Source: a virus. Taken from it: a stretch of 64,000 bases of DNA. This document shows positions 13,684-51,979 of this stretch, one piece after another; the stretch's first letter is position 1, and each line of letters opens with the position of its first letter. The notes beneath the pieces are model-generated. The model was not told the DNA's origin and did no database searches. It saw nothing but the letters and a program-made list of their open reading frames with translations. The position numbers were made by a program, and so were the translations under genes. The stretch is from the IMG/VR virus record IMGVR_UViG_3300042691_024284, positions 1 to 64,000 of that record, one strand, 5' to 3'.

Positions 13684-14913
13684 TTAATATCCTTCTGTCC
13701 AATAAAGGAGTACGGCTCCGTCGCCGCCTTTGCCGCTATTTATTGATGCTGAACTATCACTTCGTTGACCAGCACCGCCGCCACCGCCATTCCCACCGGG
13801 TCCCCCGAACGGTGTCGAGCTTGAAACTTGAGCGCCGCCACCGCCACCGCCAAAACCACCCGGACCACCAAATGTTTGAGCGTTACTAGTATTAGCGCCG
13901 CCGCCACCACCACCAAAACCGCCTGGGCCTCCAAATGCAAAATTGCTGCTGCTTTGTGCCCCGCCTCCGCCGCCGCCAAAACCACCAGAACCGCCGTTAG
14001 AATCAAACGATGTGCTTGGTCCTCCGCCGCCACCACCTCCACACAATGCCCAATACGCAAGGTAAGGAGATGCAAGACTTAACCCTCCTTGCGTACTAGT
14101 TGCTACAGGGACGCTTTGACCGCCGCTAGTTCCCACAAAATTTGTTGTTACTCCGCCTCCTGGTCCACCACCATTTCGACCATTGCCATCGCTTGCTGAT
14201 CCACCACCACCGCCCGCACTCGAAGCAGATCCATTTTTTAACCCGCCTCCACCTGAACCGCTTGGCCCTTGAGGCCCAAAACCGCCGCTACCACCAAAAC
14301 CACCCCCACCCGTTCCGTTTTGGCTAGTTGAAGTAGATCCTGCGGGTCCGCCATTTCCCCCATTACCATAAATAGACCCCGCTCCTCCGCCGCCAGTACC
14401 TCTGATATCTGAACCAGAGCTGCTTGAATACCCACCGTAACCGCCAGTAGCGGTATAGGCTTGCCGAAGCCCTCCAGATGCTGTGCCTGTACCGGGACTT
14501 CCGGGTGAAGTACTGTTAGTTATTGACCCACCGCCGCCGCCGGTAGAAGTTAAGAGAGTGCCAAATGATGATGTTCCGCCAGAAGCTCCAGAAGATTGAG
14601 TGCTAACTCGTGCTGCTCCTCCAGCGCCAACAGTAATTGTCGGCAACACCTGCCCTGGAACTACATCAATAATGCCTTGAGCGTAACCACCGCCATCACC
14701 CCCGCGAGCATATTGACCAGAATAACTACTACCAGCACCGCCAGATCCACCAGCACCCCAAACGCAAACCATAATTTGATACACGTTTGCTGGAACAACA
14801 AAGTCGTTATACGTACCCGCAATAACATACGGGCGGCAATTAGTCCAAGCAGCAGGCGCTACACGGGTTGCATAGTTAGGCGGCAACCCAAAGCCGTACA
14901 TTCCCTTGTTCAT
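13684..14913 (-). CDS. Glycine-rich tail-fibre-type protein
   Basis: A 409-residue protein that is almost entirely a glycine-rich domain: after a ~35-residue start it reads NVYQIMVCVWGAGGSGGAG and continues with Gly/Ser tracts to a short hydrophobic end (VLLYWTEGY). The domain type matches the C-terminal part of the gene at 11638-12903, so these are likely alternative or cooperating receptor-binding components. Confidence 0.75.
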   Translation of the reverse strand: MNKGMYGFGLPPNYATRVAPAAWTNCRPYVIAGTYNDFVVPANVYQIMVCVWGAGGSGGAGSSYSGQYARGGDGGGYAQGIIDVVPGQVLPTITVGAGGAARVSTQSSGASGGTSSFGTLLTSTGGGGGSITNSTSPGSPGTGTASGGLRQAYTATGGYGGYSSSSGSDIRGTGGGGAGSIYGNGGNGGPAGSTSTSQNGTGGGGFGGSGGFGPQGPSGSGGGGLKNGSASSAGGGGGSASDGNGRNGGGPGGGVTTNFVGTSGGQSVPVATSTQGGLSLASPYLAYWALCGGGGGGGPSTSFDSNGGSGGFGGGGGGAQSSSNFAFGGPGGFGGGGGGANTSNAQTFGGPGGFGGGGGGAQVSSSTPFGGPGGNGGGGGAGQRSDSSASINSGKGGDGAVLLYWTEGY

Positions 14914-33482: not shown

Positions 33483-34922
33483 CTACTGAGCGTACGGGTT
33501 GTAGCGTTGCTTGCTGCGATCATCTGCGTAGTCATAGTCGCGCGCTGGCAGCGGATCAAGCTGTATCCACCCCGAGTCACGCAGCACGCGCAGCGCTTGG
33601 GACAGGCTGTCCACGTAGTCATCGTGTCCCCCAGACTCGGGAAACGCACAGACCTGGCGCAGAAAACGTTTGGCCCACTCGGCGTACTCGCCGTCCTTTT
33701 TGGCATCCTCCGGTATGTACACCTTGCCCTTTGCTATGAGAGGCGCCACGATGTTGATACGCTGCACCTTGTCCGCTCTACCAGGGTTGTACGCCCTGAC
33801 CGGCACGCCGGCACCTTGCAGCTCCTGGATGAGCGAGATACCAGCCGACTTATCCTCCATCAGAATCAAGTCCGCCTTTCTGCCTTTGGCAAACGTGTTA
33901 TCCGCGCCGTACACAACCTCTTTAAAGTCGTTGATTACCTTTTTGCGCAGCTCCGGATATGACAGGTGCGCGTCCCATGCGTCTAGCAAGATGATGCACG
34001 TGCCCTTGTCCTGGTTCTCAAACACGCCCCACACCTCACAGGCTGTCGGGTCGTTGTGTGTCTTCTCGCTGGTAGCCGGGTCGTATGACGCAATCACATA
34101 CTCCAGCGTTGGCGTTTCCTTTTTGGACGGCCACATCTTAAACCACTTGCGCTTTACAATCCCCGCGTCCTCCGGGTTTAGGATCTCGCCATAGATCTCC
34201 TGCTTACCCAGGTCTGTGCCTTCGTACGTCTCAAGCTGCTTGAAAAACGTCGCTGACAGGTTTTGACGGTTATCATAAGACGACGCGTTCACCATGTACA
34301 CGTCGCCCCCGACCTTCCCTTCAGCCAGATCGACAATTAACTCCTTTGGCTTAGGCGTAGTGGTTATGATCTGCTGCACCCGGGCTATGTTTGGGTGCTT
34401 TAAGCGCAGGGTGAACTGCACTTGATCGTACGCATCGTCGATGTACTCGAATGCGCACAGCTCATCAAACCAGGCCCCGTGAAACTGCTTGCCTCGATAC
34501 CGCTCTGGCTCAGAGCCGGGTATGCCCTGGATGATAGAGCCGTTGATTAGCGTCACCTCAAAGAGCGATTTGTTGTAGTCCTGGATTAACGAGTGCGGGA
34601 TGATGTTAAGCAATCCCGAGTCACCCTCAAAACACGTCGCCCGGATGTCATTTGACGTCGGCGCTGTCACTAACCACCTCGTTTGCGCGTTTTTCCACGC
34701 CCGAATCCCAATCCAGTGGCTTGCGGTGTGCGTTTTGCCTGATCCGCGGCCGGCAAGCATCAAAAACGTGTCATATTCGCCGCCGTCCGGCTCTCTTTGG
34801 TGTCCCAAAGCGCTTAATTCCCATCTAACCTGCCACAAAGCCGCGTCTAGCTGCGGTTTTGGCCAGTGTTTGTTGTTCTTCGCAAAATCCGCCAGGATTT
34901 TTTCTTGCTTTTTGCTCAACAT
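33483..34922 (-). CDS. terL: Terminase large subunit
   Basis: A 479-residue packaging ATPase-nuclease. Walker A is GRGSGKT (residues 58-64), and Walker B is FHGAWFDEL with the catalytic Glu at about 154. The C-terminal nuclease domain has conserved acidic positions in ASYDPATS and ESGGHDDYVDSL. It translocates DNA into the prohead and cuts concatemers. The ATG overlaps the end of the upstream intein-like gene by seven bases, so translation is coupled. The small subunit appears to be encoded far away on the other strand (52210-52599). Confidence 0.95.
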   Translation of the reverse strand: MLSKKQEKILADFAKNNKHWPKPQLDAALWQVRWELSALGHQREPDGGEYDTFLMLAGRGSGKTHTASHWIGIRAWKNAQTRWLVTAPTSNDIRATCFEGDSGLLNIIPHSLIQDYNKSLFEVTLINGSIIQGIPGSEPERYRGKQFHGAWFDELCAFEYIDDAYDQVQFTLRLKHPNIARVQQIITTTPKPKELIVDLAEGKVGGDVYMVNASSYDNRQNLSATFFKQLETYEGTDLGKQEIYGEILNPEDAGIVKRKWFKMWPSKKETPTLEYVIASYDPATSEKTHNDPTACEVWGVFENQDKGTCIILLDAWDAHLSYPELRKKVINDFKEVVYGADNTFAKGRKADLILMEDKSAGISLIQELQGAGVPVRAYNPGRADKVQRINIVAPLIAKGKVYIPEDAKKDGEYAEWAKRFLRQVCAFPESGGHDDYVDSLSQALRVLRDSGWIQLDPLPARDYDYADDRSKQRYNPYAQ

Positions 34923-35878
34923 ATTGAGATAAATCCCTCACTTGCCAGAAAAGGCCGGTCCGCAATGACATGAACGCACTGCTTAGGGTCGATTTTCTTG
35001 ATTTTTCGTATGTATCTGCGCTTTAAGCGCCCGTTTTTGTCATCTAACCTGAACGCCAGCTTGTAGTTTGACGTATTCTCAGGCAAATACAGCATCGTCT
35101 TACACCCAAACGACTCAACCAGCGCCTGGTAGCGCCTGATTGTGGGGTAGTGCGCGTCGTAGATGCAGTATTTTTTGTACTCCTCGTCCCATCTGACGTA
35201 CGAGTTGGCATCAATTAGCCCCTCGAGCAACTCCCTTCGCTGTTCCGGTGAGCTCTCGATGTAACTAAACGGCAGCGTCGTTGGGATGTCGGCCCCAGCA
35301 AACAAAAACGTGTCCTTAATCGACGGCCGAAACTCAAACATCAGTTTGCGGTGTCTGGATCTGCCCACCTTTATAAAAAACCCGTGCCGCCTGCAGCGCT
35401 TCCTAACCTTCTCCACATCCATCTTACCTACCAGGTTTAGGCCCGACGGTCGCAGTGAGCCTAACCACACACCCATCACGTAGGGCGGCACCGGCAGATC
35501 CTTCCATGTGTAACGCAGCGGCTCGCACACTTGTATGGACCAAGTCTTAGGCTCGCCCTTAACCAGCTCATCGACAGCCAGGATCTTTGGCTGCGATCTC
35601 AGCGGTTTGGAATACTTTTTGCCGCGGTTCTTCACCCACCTCGACAGATTGTCTCTATACGTCTTGTCTTGTAGCGGGAGCGTCATGTGCGCATCACCTA
35701 CCAGGTCCAGCCCATCGTCGAACGCCACCTGATAGCACGCGCTCGGTATGTACTGCTGCACCGATCTCACCGGCTGGGCGCAGCCCTCTTGGTCAAAAAC
35801 TAGATCACCAGGGCGTAGATCGATTGCCCGTCGCCAGCCATCAAGCGTTGGTATTGGCGTCGTTGCTGCTAGGCCCAT
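34916..35878 (-). CDS. Free-standing degenerate intein (Hint plus LAGLIDADG)
   Basis: A 320-residue protein with the layout of an intein but its own start codon. Block A is recognisable (GLAATTPIPTLDGW then LRPGDLVFD), with Gly in place of the catalytic Cys1. Block B has FDDGLDLVGDAHMTLPL. Two LAGLIDADG-like helices follow (YVMGVWLGSLRPSG and LLEGLIDANSYV), in which the catalytic Asp is Ser and Asn respectively. Block F reads CVHVIADRPFLASEGFI, but the terminal His-Asn is missing and the protein ends SIC. Neither splicing nor normal cleavage is expected. It precedes and overlaps terL, a common intein host gene. Confidence 0.75.
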   Translation of the reverse strand: MGLAATTPIPTLDGWRRAIDLRPGDLVFDQEGCAQPVRSVQQYIPSACYQVAFDDGLDLVGDAHMTLPLQDKTYRDNLSRWVKNRGKKYSKPLRSQPKILAVDELVKGEPKTWSIQVCEPLRYTWKDLPVPPYVMGVWLGSLRPSGLNLVGKMDVEKVRKRCRRHGFFIKVGRSRHRKLMFEFRPSIKDTFLFAGADIPTTLPFSYIESSPEQRRELLEGLIDANSYVRWDEEYKKYCIYDAHYPTIRRYQALVESFGCKTMLYLPENTSNYKLAFRLDDKNGRLKRRYIRKIKKIDPKQCVHVIADRPFLASEGFISIC

Positions 35879-36551: not shown

Positions 36552-36709
36552 TGCTGCATTGCACCACCCCCAGTTAGCGCTCACTAACTTTGTGCAGTGC
36601 AACATGTTAGTGAGTACTAACTAACCTACGTGCTGCAGTGCAGCACCCCCAGTTAGCGCTCACTAACATACATGCTGCATTGCACCACCCCCAGTGAGCG
36701 CTCACTAAC
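36552..36709. repeat. Three 37-bp iterons with operator palindromes
   Basis: Near-identical 37-bp units lie at 36552-36588, 36631-36667 and 36673-36709. Each begins TGCTGCA(T/G)TGCA and ends in a palindromic half such as GTTAGCGCTCACTAAC (GTGAGCGCTCAC in the third is a perfect palindrome). Extra related palindromes without the first half occur at 36606-36621 (GTTAGTGAGTACTAAC) and 36731-36750. They look like binding sites for a phage repressor or replication initiator. Confidence 0.8.
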
Positions 36710-36763
36710 CTAATTGCCGCGCTGCAATATGTGAGTGAGCACTCACTGACATATAGGCAAGAC

Positions 36764-36951: not shown

Positions 36952-36974
36952 ACCCTGAAAAAACCAGTATAGTG
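36952..36974 (+). promoter_or_regulatory. Early promoter-like element, copy 1
   Basis: A 23-bp element with core CCCTGAAAAAACCAGTATAG, repeated at 37811-37833 and 39321-39343, each upstream of a gene group. TATAGT could act as a -10 hexamer. No -35 match is visible at the usual distance, so the CTGAAAAAACCAG part is presumably the specific determinant. The gene start follows at 37002. Confidence 0.6.
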
Positions 36975-37752: not shown

Positions 37753-37804
37753 GCATCACTGATGAGGCCTGAATGGCCGAAACCCCGGCGACGGGGTCTG
37801 ATGC
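37753..37804 (+). ncRNA. Type I hammerhead ribozyme, copy 1
   Basis: All core residues of the hammerhead are present in order. Stem I is GCATCA/TGATGC (37753-37758 with 37799-37804). The core CTGATGA (37759-37765) precedes stem II GGCC-TGAAT-GGCC, then GAAA, stem III CCCCG/CGGGG closed by a GCGA tetraloop, and T97-C98 (37797-37798). Cleavage is expected after C37798. It lies between the GP88 gene and the next early promoter-like element. Confidence 0.92.
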
Positions 37805-37810
37805 AAAACC

Positions 37811-37833
37811 ACCCTGAAAAAACCAGTACAATG
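37811..37833 (+). promoter_or_regulatory. Early promoter-like element, copy 2
   Basis: CCCTGAAAAAACCAGTACAA, seven bases after hammerhead 1. Flanks (CAAAACCA before, GCAAC after) are also shared with copy 3. It precedes the ATG at 37860 and the leader AACACGGAGAAAACACC, which recurs before several genes here. Confidence 0.6.
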
Positions 37834-37859
37834 CAACACCACAACACGGAGAAAACACC

Positions 37860-38033
37860 ATGAGCACACCACAGACCCCGATCACTGTCAGCATGTTGTC
37901 CGAGTACTTGCGCGGCGATAGCTGTTCCGAATTACAGGCATTCAGCGCCATGGCCATGCTGGCCGAAATCCTAAACGGCGAGATCGATCTCGAGCAGATC
38001 CGCCTCAGCGTGCTAGCGGAGACCCAACCATGA
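37860..38033 (+). CDS. Small early protein
   Basis: A 57-residue protein (MSTPQTPITVSMLSEYLRGD...), predicted helical, with ribosome-binding site GGAGA nine bases before the ATG. It overlaps the next ATG by four bases (ATGA). No family recognised. Confidence 0.7.
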   Translation: MSTPQTPITVSMLSEYLRGDSCSELQAFSAMAMLAEILNGEIDLEQIRLSVLAETQP

Positions 38034-38218
38034 GCGAGCAGCAAGTAATTCGCCACAGCAAAGGGCCCGAGGGCTGGGCCCGCGCCACCATGGGCCCGAT
38101 CAACGGCCGGCACTGGGACGCCACAGATCGACAGTGGATCCAGTGGCTGCAGGATCAAGGGCAGGACGTCGTGACAATCGGCGACACCATGTATCAGATC
38201 GTCACGCCGCGCGAATAG
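38030..38218 (+). CDS. Small early protein ending in hammerhead 2
   Basis: A 62-residue protein with WARATMGPINGRHWDATDR and a Trp-rich middle. Its stop codon TAG shares its last base with the first base of hammerhead 2. Translationally coupled to the previous gene. Function unknown. Confidence 0.7.
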   Translation: MSEQQVIRHSKGPEGWARATMGPINGRHWDATDRQWIQWLQDQGQDVVTIGDTMYQIVTPRE

Positions 38219-38269
38219 CATCACTGATGAGGCCTAAGTGGCCGAAACCCCGGCGACGGGGTCTGATGC
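38218..38269 (+). ncRNA. Type I hammerhead ribozyme, copy 2
   Basis: Same fold as copy 1: stem I GCATCA/TGATGC, core CTGATGA (38224-38230), stem II GGCC-TAAGT-GGCC (the loop differs from copy 1 at two bases), GAAA, stem III CCCCG/CGGGG with GCGA, and U-C at 38262-38263. Cleavage is expected after C38263, releasing a 5' leader for the gene at 38293. Confidence 0.92.
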
Positions 38270-38292
38270 ATACAACACGGAGAAAACACACC

Positions 38293-38499
38293 ATGCAAAA
38301 CTGGCAATTAATAGATGCAAACAATAGCCCGGTAGCTATCGGCGACGCTATCGTTTCATTTCGCGGCGAGCAGGCCACACTCAAGGGCTGCAGCCCTCCG
38401 CAACATGCGGGATCTACTGGCAGGGTTTACGTAGGCGGAGGAGAGTATTATCCGTCCGTGTACGGTTTGAAATGGGTCAGCATCACTGACGAGGCCTGA
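38293..38499 (+). CDS. Small early protein (SH3-like pattern)
   Basis: A 68-residue protein: NSPVAIGDAIVSFRGEQATL, then a Gly-rich turn and VYVGGGEYYPSVYGLKW. This spacing is that of small beta-barrel phage proteins. The final codons (SITDEA) and stop are inside hammerhead 3, so the ribozyme must keep a coding constraint on its 5' half. Start preceded by GGAGA. Confidence 0.7.
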   Translation: MQNWQLIDANNSPVAIGDAIVSFRGEQATLKGCSPPQHAGSTGRVYVGGGEYYPSVYGLKWVSITDEA

Positions 38500-38531
38500 A
38501 TGGCCGAAACCCCGGCGACGGGGTCTGATGC
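38480..38531 (+). ncRNA. Type I hammerhead ribozyme, copy 3
   Basis: Stem I GCATCA/TGATGC; core CTGACGA (38486-38492), where the variable position 7 is C. Stem II is GGCC-TGAAT-GGCC, then GAAA, stem III CCCCG/CGGGG with GCGA, and U-C at 38524-38525. Cleavage is expected after C38525. Its first 20 bases are also the 3' end of the upstream coding sequence. The ArdC-type gene follows at 38555. Confidence 0.92.
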
Positions 38532-38554
38532 ATATAACACGGAGAAAACACACC

Positions 38555-39346
38555 ATGACAACAGAAAACGCACAATGGGCAGCGCTGCTGTCCGACGCTG
38601 TCAACAAACCCGGCATTCTGTCGAGCGCCTACTCGGCATTCCATAATTACAGCATCGGGAATCAGATGCTGGCTTGGGGTCAGCTACACCAGCGAGGAAT
38701 TCCGCTCGGGCCAATTGCCACATTCAAAGACTGGCAAAAACTCGGCCGGCAAGTGAAAAAAGGCGAAAAGGCCATTTCTCTTGTCATGCCAGTGACAGTG
38801 AACAAAAAAGACGAGACCGGCGAAAAGACGGGCGACTCGTTTACATGGTTTGCGCTCAAACCCCGCTGGTTTGTGCTCAGCCAGACAGACGGCACTGACT
38901 ACGTACACGAGGCCAAGACGCCAGACTGGGACCCTGCGCTGGCACTGGCAGCGCTCGACATTCAGGAAATTCCATTCGAGAGCGCCGACGGCAATTGTCA
39001 GGGCTATGCATCATCGCGGCAGATTGCAGTTAATCCAATTGCTGCACTGCCGCATAAAACGCGATTCCATGAGCTAGCGCACGTCGTGCTCGGCCACACT
39101 GCCGAGGGCACGATGCAAGACGACGAGCGCACGCCGCGGGACATTCGCGAAGTCGAGGCAGAGTGCGTCGCCTACATTTGTGTGTCCCTGCTGGGCTTGT
39201 CCGGACAGCAAGAGTCGCGCGGGTATATCCAGCACTGGCTAGCTGGCGCCGAGATCGGCGACAAATCAGCGCAGAAAATATTCGCCGCCGCGGACAAGAT
39301 TCTGAAAGCTGGCAAAAACCACCCTGAAAAAACCAGTACAGTGTAA
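38555..39346 (+). CDS. ArdC-type antirestriction protein
   Basis: A 263-residue protein with the two parts of ArdC-family antirestriction proteins. One is an N-terminal ssDNA-binding domain (NYSIGNQMLAWGQLHQRG, FKDWQKLGRQVKKGEKAISL). The other is a C-terminal zinc-metalloprotease-like domain with HELAH at residues 172-176. Such proteins protect incoming DNA from host restriction. The start at 38555 follows the leader AACACGGAGAAAACACACC. Early position right after the probable origin fits a role immediately after entry. The third early promoter-like element is inside its 3' end. Confidence 0.88.
   Translation: MTTENAQWAALLSDAVNKPGILSSAYSAFHNYSIGNQMLAWGQLHQRGIPLGPIATFKDWQKLGRQVKKGEKAISLVMPVTVNKKDETGEKTGDSFTWFALKPRWFVLSQTDGTDYVHEAKTPDWDPALALAALDIQEIPFESADGNCQGYASSRQIAVNPIAALPHKTRFHELAHVVLGHTAEGTMQDDERTPRDIREVEAECVAYICVSLLGLSGQQESRGYIQHWLAGAEIGDKSAQKIFAAADKILKAGKNHPEKTSTV
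39321..39343 (+). promoter_or_regulatory. Early promoter-like element, copy 3
   Basis: CCCTGAAAAAACCAGTACAG within the last codons of the ArdC-type gene, preserving the reading frame. Structured RNA copy A begins 10 bp downstream, so that RNA may be the start of this transcript. Confidence 0.6.
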
Positions 39347-42898: not shown

Positions 42899-43029
42899 AG
42901 ATGCTCGGATTTTTAATGATGCTGTTTGGTTTTTTGTTAACCACGCAGGGCACGTCGTGGAATGCGCTCATGCTCATGGGCGGCGGCGCCGCGCTAATTT
43001 ATGGAGCGTACAGATTTGAAAAGAGATAA
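42895..43029 (+). CDS. Small two-TM protein
   Basis: A 44-residue protein with two hydrophobic stretches (about residues 3-19 and 25-38) linked by a short polar turn. The start at 42895 overlaps the previous stop by four bases. It overlaps the sigma gene start by 29 bases. Function unknown. Confidence 0.65.
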   Translation: MKMLGFLMMLFGFLLTTQGTSWNALMLMGGGAALIYGAYRFEKR

Positions 43030-43588
43030 GACCGCGCTGTCTGACTATATCCGGGTGCTTTACAGGCACACGGTGCTGCCAGTACAGGAAGAAGAGCGGC
43101 TATCGAAGATGATACAGGCCGGAGACAACGCCGCATTGGAAAAGCTAGTGCGGCACAATCTCCGGTTTGTCGTTTCGGTGGTCAAAGAAATGCCAATCTG
43201 GCAAAACGGCTCGGTGCCGTTCGAGGACATCGTTGCTATCGGTAACGAGTCGCTGCTGAAAGCAGCCCGCAAGTGGGTGCCAAAAAATGGGGCTCGGTTT
43301 GCCACGTACGCCAAGCCATTCATTATCAAGGGAATCAGGAGGGCTCTTGATAATGAGTGGTCAATGATCCGCGTGCCGGTGAACATCCTCGAAGAGATCC
43401 GCCGCATGAAGTATCTCGAGCGGGTTTTGTCGCAAGAGTTAAAACGGGACCCGACAGCCAGGGAGATTGCAGACCGGATGAAAGTGCACGAAAGCAGGAT
43501 CACGGAGCTGCAAAATCTCCTGACCCTGGAGCCGGTGTCGCTTGAGGCCTACAACCAAGAGAAATTCCACGAGGAGAGCGAAGAATGA
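43001..43588 (+). CDS. Phage sigma factor with regions 2-3 only
   Basis: A 195-residue sigma-70-family protein. Region 1.2/2.1 is LEKLVRHNLRFVVSVVKEM. Region 2.2-2.3 contains FEDIVAIGNESLLKAARKW and RFATYAKPFIIKGIRRAL. Region 3 follows (IRVPVNILEEIRRMKYL...). It ends about ten residues after a region 3-like helix, with no region 4 (-35 binding). It should direct RNA polymerase to extended -10 promoters, like T4 gp55. A TTG start at 43016 with GGAG upstream is an alternative to the ATG at 43001. Probable master switch from early to middle/late genes. Confidence 0.85.
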   Translation: MERTDLKRDKTALSDYIRVLYRHTVLPVQEEERLSKMIQAGDNAALEKLVRHNLRFVVSVVKEMPIWQNGSVPFEDIVAIGNESLLKAARKWVPKNGARFATYAKPFIIKGIRRALDNEWSMIRVPVNILEEIRRMKYLERVLSQELKRDPTAREIADRMKVHESRITELQNLLTLEPVSLEAYNQEKFHEESEE

Positions 43589-51898: not shown

Positions 51899-51979
51899 GG
51901 GGTTGGAATAGTTTCGACGTGGGCCAAGGCCTAAGCGGCAACCTTGCGGACCTGGGTGCGATTCCCAGCAACTCCACCA
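51899..51979 (+). ncRNA. Minimal tmRNA-like RNA (tRNA-like domain only)
   Basis: 81 nt. The acceptor GGGGTTG (51899-51905)/CAACTCC (51969-51975) has a G3-U70 pair (51901 with 51973), discriminator A and encoded CCA, the alanine identity set. The 5' part GAATAGTTTCGACG matches the tmRNA signature (E. coli ATTCTGGATTCGACG). The T-arm CTGGG-TGCGATT-CCCAG with GGAC before it aligns base for base with the tmRNA 3' end. Only ~30 nt (including CAAGG/CCTTG) replace the ~280-nt mRNA-like and pseudoknot domain, and no tag ORF is visible. An attP copy of ssrA is an alternative, but both ends are present. Confidence 0.8.

Follow-up and report, generated by a model that had tools for sequence, protein, structure and literature searches.

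What do three near-identical hammerhead ribozymes do between the early genes of a phage? The elements lie in an uncultivated virus whose IMG/VR record comprises 64,758 bases; the window, that is, the whole stretch of 64,000 nucleotides analysed here, is nearly all of it. Structural genes (large terminase, portal, tail fibre) occupy the minus strand, and replication and early genes (primase, helicase, exonuclease, DNA polymerase, ribonucleotide reductase) the plus strand. The three 52-nt hammerheads are positioned where the plus-strand gene block begins, all of them on the coding strand (Table 1).

Table 1. Hammerheads (HHR1 to HHR3) and neighbouring features, in window coordinates
Feature	Position	Strand	Remarks
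gA, GP88 family protein (PF17338), 248 aa	37002..37748	+	upstream of HHR1
HHR1, type I hammerhead	37753..37804	+	predicted cleavage after C37798; 79.3 bits
Promoter-like repeat copy CCTGAAAAAACCAGTA	37813..37828	+	immediately 3' of HHR1; related motif in relatives
g2, 57 aa	37860..38033	+	no family match
g3, 62 aa	38030..38218	+	ATGA overlap with g2; no family match
HHR2, type I hammerhead	38218..38269	+	predicted cleavage after C38263; 78.8 bits
Segment HHR2-g4-HHR3-ArdC	38218..39314	+	absent from closest relative L228; left edge is first base of HHR2
g4, 68 aa	38293..38499	+	C-terminus SITDEA* encoded by HHR3
HHR3, type I hammerhead	38480..38531	+	predicted cleavage after C38525; 78.9 bits
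g5, ArdC N-terminal domain (PF08401) and zincin-like metallopeptidase region	38555..39346	+	anti-restriction-type protein

The repeat next to HHR1 occurs in three exact 16-nt copies on the plus strand ahead of early genes (36954–36969, 37813–37828 and 39323–39338), which extend into TATAGTG, TACAATG and TACAGTG. A related motif, GAAAAACCAGTA, is found at gene junctions in relatives, and there it doubles as coding sequence for the ends of genes. The repeat is likely a phage-specific promoter. It has no obvious −35 box and could be read by a phage sigma-70-type factor encoded at 43001–43588 (+), in which regions 2 and 3 are detected and region 4 is not.

Elsewhere in the window, the large terminase is encoded on the minus strand by two overlapping ORFs (33483–34922 and 34916–35878), both matching terminase families; a split gene, a frameshift and an assembly error are candidate readings. 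Between the divergent gene blocks lies an inverted-repeat-rich cluster (TTAGTGAG...CTCACTAA; 36560–36760), perhaps an origin or regulatory region. At 51899–51979 (+), an 81-nt RNA element matches the Rfam tmRNA model at both of the model's ends (53.3 bits), 19 nt taking the place of 312. This element has a tRNA-like domain (GGGGUUG...CAACUCCACCA; G3-U pair as in tRNA-Ala), no mRNA-like part and an unremarkable predicted fold energy, and it is 96–98% identical in two related phages. A tRNA-Ser (anticodon act) called by ARAGORN within a long structural ORF (14392–14483, minus strand) is probably false.

Three compact type I hammerheads

Each copy is built in the order GCATCA (5' arm of stem I), CTGANGA, GGCC-loop-GGCC, GAAA, CCCCG-GCGA-CGGGG, TC and TGATGC. 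Stem II has 4 bp, and stem III has 5 bp in addition to the A15.1-U16.1 pair and is capped by a GCGA loop in all three copies. Differences are limited to loop II (TGAAT, TAAGT and TGAAT) and core position 7 (T, T and C), as the first-pass annotation had stated. Its description of three complete hammerheads, with their coordinates, core, stems and cleavage sites, proves exact to the base. The elements carry the invariant type I core (CUGANGA ... GAAA); the A15.1-U16.1 pair is present as A30-U45 in 24 of 24 cases, and position 17, which in this class is not G, is C in all three copies. Stem I is an open helix and stems II and III are closed by loops, the three helices around the core being supported by covariation.

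The core-plus-spacing pattern is observed three times, each time at this locus, against 0.15 expected in shuffled sequence. A covariance model derived from the window and its relatives picks out just these three copies in the 64 kb at ~79 bits, the next best match scoring 12.5 bits, and neither this model nor the pattern search reveals further hammerheads in the 64-kb window. For each isolated 52-mer the hammerhead is the minimum-energy fold (copy 2 has a z-score of −3.7); in the native context of ~170–210 nt, stem I is missing from the predicted minimum for copies 1 and 3, which counts against efficient folding there.

At gathering thresholds, Rfam finds no hammerhead in the window. The single match in the copies at E ≤ 1 is to RAGATH-1, in copy 2 (26.7 bits, E = 0.21), and Hammerhead_1 (RF00163) is absent from the window's matches even at E < 1. 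The first-pass annotation had proposed that a sub-threshold Rfam covariance score would refute the assignment; the scores do fall short, but we judge this test invalid. Twelve related hammerhead-rich loci, containing 46 hammerheads according to our motif finder, also give no Rfam match at gathering, and one of them yields sub-threshold Hammerhead_1 and Hammerhead_3 matches at E ≤ 1. Because all hammerheads in these loci are missed as well, the failure in the window reflects a limit of model sensitivity, and an above-threshold Rfam score is not a defining biochemical feature of type I hammerheads. The elements share with Hammerhead_1 (RF00163) the core, the three helices, the open stem I and the UH cleavage site, but differ from it in a stem I of exactly 6 bp with an invariant A/A flank and in a UNANU loop II. 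A large class of phage hammerheads is thus overlooked by current Rfam thresholds, and phage hammerheads are therefore undercounted.

A covarying family of relatives

DNA-pattern searches of public viral contigs gave at least 287 non-redundant hammerheads from at least 177 loci, nearly all viral. This collection consists of the matches listed and is not a census; its metagenome loci are partly redundant in ancestry, and the controls are simple. Among 27 relatives of equal length, all 384 pair cells hold standard pairs, and both sides have changed in 12 of the 16 pairs (five in helix I, two in helix II, five in helix III). The resulting covariation score of 0.589 compares with 0.145 in shuffles and is reached by none of them. 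Since the searches behind the collection partly required pairing, a fair test of pairing is provided by one pattern that fixed the core, stem II and stem III and left stem I free. Among the matches listed for it, all 107 non-redundant sites have a 6-bp stem I (Watson–Crick or GU), and all 107 carry an A on either side of this stem (A-7/A+7), at a fixed distance from the core; UNANU in loop II was fixed by the search pattern itself. The combination of a fixed 6-bp stem I, an A/A flank and a UNANU loop II suggests a tertiary contact between loops I and II.

The covariance model matches 28 of 30 virus records, with one cluster per ~60-kb record sampled. Neither the 3.6-kb region nor the 52-mer matched any deposited phage at the DNA level, so that no isolate with exactly these elements was found; Limnohabitans phage DC31 and Podoviridae sp. 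ctYwJ313 encode GP88 homologues, yet the covariance model finds no hammerhead in them. In three Flavobacteriales/Bacteroidetes genome contigs (L010–L012), a compact hammerhead lies ~25 nt upstream of the start codon of a gene for a small, secreted-looking protein. The closest relative, L228, contains a variant ahead of its g2 (L228:3070-3122; 56 bits) in which stem II is preceded by one additional U (CTGACGAT-GGGG), possibly with altered activity.

The low Rfam scores are what inactive motifs, in decay or arisen by chance, would give. Such an origin is extremely improbable in view of the number of copies, their covariation and their retention at orthologous sites (see below). On these comparisons, functional type I hammerheads are the best-supported identity of the three elements.

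Stop codons, start codons and cassette boundaries

The ribozymes of the window are found just after the preceding stop codon, with predicted cleavage ~30–60 nt ahead of the next start. The stop of the GP88 gene is 4 nt upstream of HHR1, HHR2 starts on the final base of the g3 TAG, and the last codons of g4 are encoded by HHR3, whose loop II is the g4 TGA (38497–38499). The overlap of the third copy with the end of a coding sequence had been pointed out previously; the 1-nt overlap at the second is an addition. HHR1 is followed by the promoter-like repeat and only then by the g2 RBS, which is not directly adjacent to the ribozyme. The ribozymes had been described as separating four small genes and preceding the ArdC gene. 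They do delimit four transcription units (GP88, g2+g3, g4 and ArdC), but these contain five genes, the overlapping g2 and g3 being unseparated.

The same arrangement is observed across the collection. Among the first 166 non-redundant hammerheads, an SD-led start on the same strand lies within 60 nt of the cleavage site in 77%, against 19% at random and 9% in antisense, with a median distance from cleavage to start of 29 nt. In the enlarged set (at least 287) the median is ~27–28 nt, and an ATG with SD is found in 59% (control, 9%) and an ATG alone in 89% (control, 33%). Upstream, an ORF with 60 or more codons ends at the ribozyme (stem I) in 93% of cases, compared with 22% at random. Among the matches listed, 265 hammerheads have an upstream ORF, some of which may be spurious; the stop codon falls within the ribozyme in 97 of them and abuts or overlaps the start of stem I in another 73. 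The internal stops are at the core UGA in 67 cases and in loop II or the codon after it in 30, a frequency that is partly mechanical because the core always holds UGA. Genes thus often terminate within the ribozyme; roughly one in three of the preceding genes appears to do so.

No locus collected has hammerheads on both strands, and arrays of 2–5 are present in 33 of the 97 loci among those listed. The Pfam family seen most often downstream is ArdC, yet it accounts for 4 of 113 proteins, a raw count without a background rate, and we claim no special link to anti-restriction.

Hammerheads are retained at orthologous junctions. One follows the GP88 gene in five phages (the window, L228, L229, L230 and L162) and one follows g4 in four (the window, L229, L230 and the distant L233, whose g4 is 41% identical). 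Across orthologues stem I reads GCATCA/TGATGC, GCACTG/CAGTGC or GCGCAA/TTGTGC, and the arms always match. Identity to the window is 80–98% in the ribozyme core and 41–79% in the 150 nt before the ribozyme; a conserved ribozyme amid diverging flanks is the pattern expected under purifying selection on the RNA. The placement of HHR1 just before a promoter-like repeat recurs in L230 and L162, and the gene downstream of the g4 ribozyme differs among other relatives.

Comparison with L228 reveals where genes have been exchanged. In L228, g3 and the promoter-like motif are consecutive, and the window has HHR2-g4-HHR3-ArdC exactly between them, the extra segment starting at the first base of HHR2 and ending just before the motif. 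HHR1 aligns to two L228 hammerheads that flank an extra gene, and upstream of GP88 this relative has an additional gene and hammerhead. As gene differences between the two phages break at hammerheads, the ribozymes mark boundaries of gene gain and loss. These breaks, together with the near identity of the copies within one phage, could also mean that the 52-bp repeats are conserved as DNA, serving as homology for cassette exchange with cleavage incidental. We regard this as unlikely: homology would not call for an intact catalytic core with compensatory stem changes, stem I differs between neighbours (30 of 69 neighbouring pairs are not cross-compatible), and some window/L228 breaks fall at promoter-like motifs instead.

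Hammerheads as probable processing elements of early mRNA

In T7, early mRNA is cut between cistrons at RNase III sites by a host protein, and RiboJ is an engineered ribozyme insulator, synthetic and present as a single copy downstream of a promoter. Like these, the phage hammerheads would cut between cistrons or ahead of an RBS, yielding defined, context-independent messages. Covariation, retention at orthologous junctions and the location of at least 287 phage hammerheads between stop codon and RBS make mRNA processing the best-supported reading, and on this sequence evidence the elements are probably intercistronic processing elements for early mRNA.

The ribozyme would fold in the nascent early mRNA and cleave itself in cis once it has been passed both by transcription and by the ribosomes translating the gene before it. 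The upstream product would end in the folded ribozyme with a 2',3'-cyclic phosphate, and the downstream product would begin with a short leader that carries a 5'-OH and leads up to a standard RBS. The operon would in this way be divided into independent one- or two-gene mRNAs (GP88, g2-g3, g4 and ArdC), each translated and degraded independently of its neighbours. Because each gene cassette would bring its own cut site and leader, cassettes could be exchanged without disturbing those next to them. The first-pass annotation had likewise favoured self-cleaving mRNA processing, with a separate 5' end for each gene; the latter part does not hold, as g2 and g3 remain joined, which counts against processing into single-gene messages.

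The most likely benefits are differential stability and context-independent expression. Ends with a 5'-OH would be poor substrates for 5'-phosphate-dependent decay, and a folded ribozyme would protect the 3' end. Unmasking of the RBS is ruled out as the main effect by predicted accessibilities that are similar before (0.61–0.69) and after cleavage (0.62–0.74); the effect is therefore more likely to be message separation, stability and independence of context. With a promoter-like motif directly behind it, HHR1 may serve to form a 3' end instead of setting a 5' end, trimming read-through RNA in place of a terminator.

The ribozymes might instead be switches, in which an ion, a ligand or translation controls cleavage and toggles the downstream genes. 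Cleavage could be coupled to translation, since a ribosome terminating at an internal stop would cover the ribozyme, and a halovirus hammerhead 13 nt ahead of a helicase gene has been suggested as a salt sensor (PMC3088659). We consider switching somewhat less probable even than repeats kept for exchange, given a compact 52-nt element without an extra conserved aptamer-like domain, an RBS whose predicted accessibility is unaltered by cleavage, and downstream genes that vary among relatives.

As direct repeats sharing one stem I, the three copies would also free RNAs of 465 and 262 nt with joinable ends, which could be ligated into retrozyme-like circles. Stem I is cross-compatible in 39 of 69 neighbouring pairs over all loci, too even a split to discriminate as an indicator of circles. 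Circularization is very unlikely: the remaining pairs are incompatible, the released segments are whole genes with an RBS, and circles or spliced products were sought by Perreault et al. 2011 and none were found (PMC3088659). Nor do the ribozymes flank a repeat or retroelement unit, as in retrozymes; the intervening segments are distinct genes.

The tandem series that the first-pass annotation saw punctuating an operon is present, and its processing is supported by our comparisons, but neither the array nor the idea is new. Tandem hammerheads in prophages were published in 2011 (A. tumefaciens, with a triple array around ardA, C. scindens and A. caulinodans), together with the suggestion that they cut phage mRNA into pieces the length of an operon or a gene, and cleavage by the A. 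tumefaciens array was shown both in vitro and in E. coli (PMC3088659). In both cases two or more hammerheads on the same strand flank single genes or short phage gene blocks near an anti-restriction gene. Here, however, this gene is ardC rather than ardA, and the copies, near-identical, compact and of type I, lie in the early region of a phage that is uncultivated. The HHphage hammerhead of haloviruses HF1/HF2 also lies in a virus early region shortly upstream of a start codon (13 nt), with the 5' end of a major transcript discussed at the cleavage site (PMC3088659), but it is a single copy with a variant core in an archaeal virus. Theta ribozymes of gut phages are likewise self-cleaving elements for RNA processing in Caudoviricetes; they differ in their HDV-like fold and in lying beside tRNAs, whose 3' trailers they are proposed to trim (PMC10879173). 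A 2017 review left the role of prokaryotic hammerheads open and noted the link to phages (PMC6155905).

We found no mention of stop codons, reading frames or a cassette-boundary pattern in the main text of the 2011 study (PMC3088659), and no later open-access paper on such an architecture; the subscription literature was outside this search. New here are a compact subfamily missed by Rfam, the quantified arrangement of stop, ribozyme and RBS, and the pattern of cassette boundaries. More tentatively, and at rather less than even confidence, phage early cassettes may widely consist of an ORF whose stop is supplied by or abuts a hammerhead, followed by a short A-rich leader with the RBS for the next ORF. 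The ribozyme would then be a natural translation-coupled insulator, acting as stop donor, as former of 3' and 5' ends and as cassette boundary and cleaving at a time set by the terminating ribosome. If this is true, such insulators would let phages swap anti-defence and other small genes freely. The succession of stop, ribozyme, leader with RBS and start, its conservation at orthologous junctions and its coincidence with cassette boundaries make the function of phage hammerheads directly testable.
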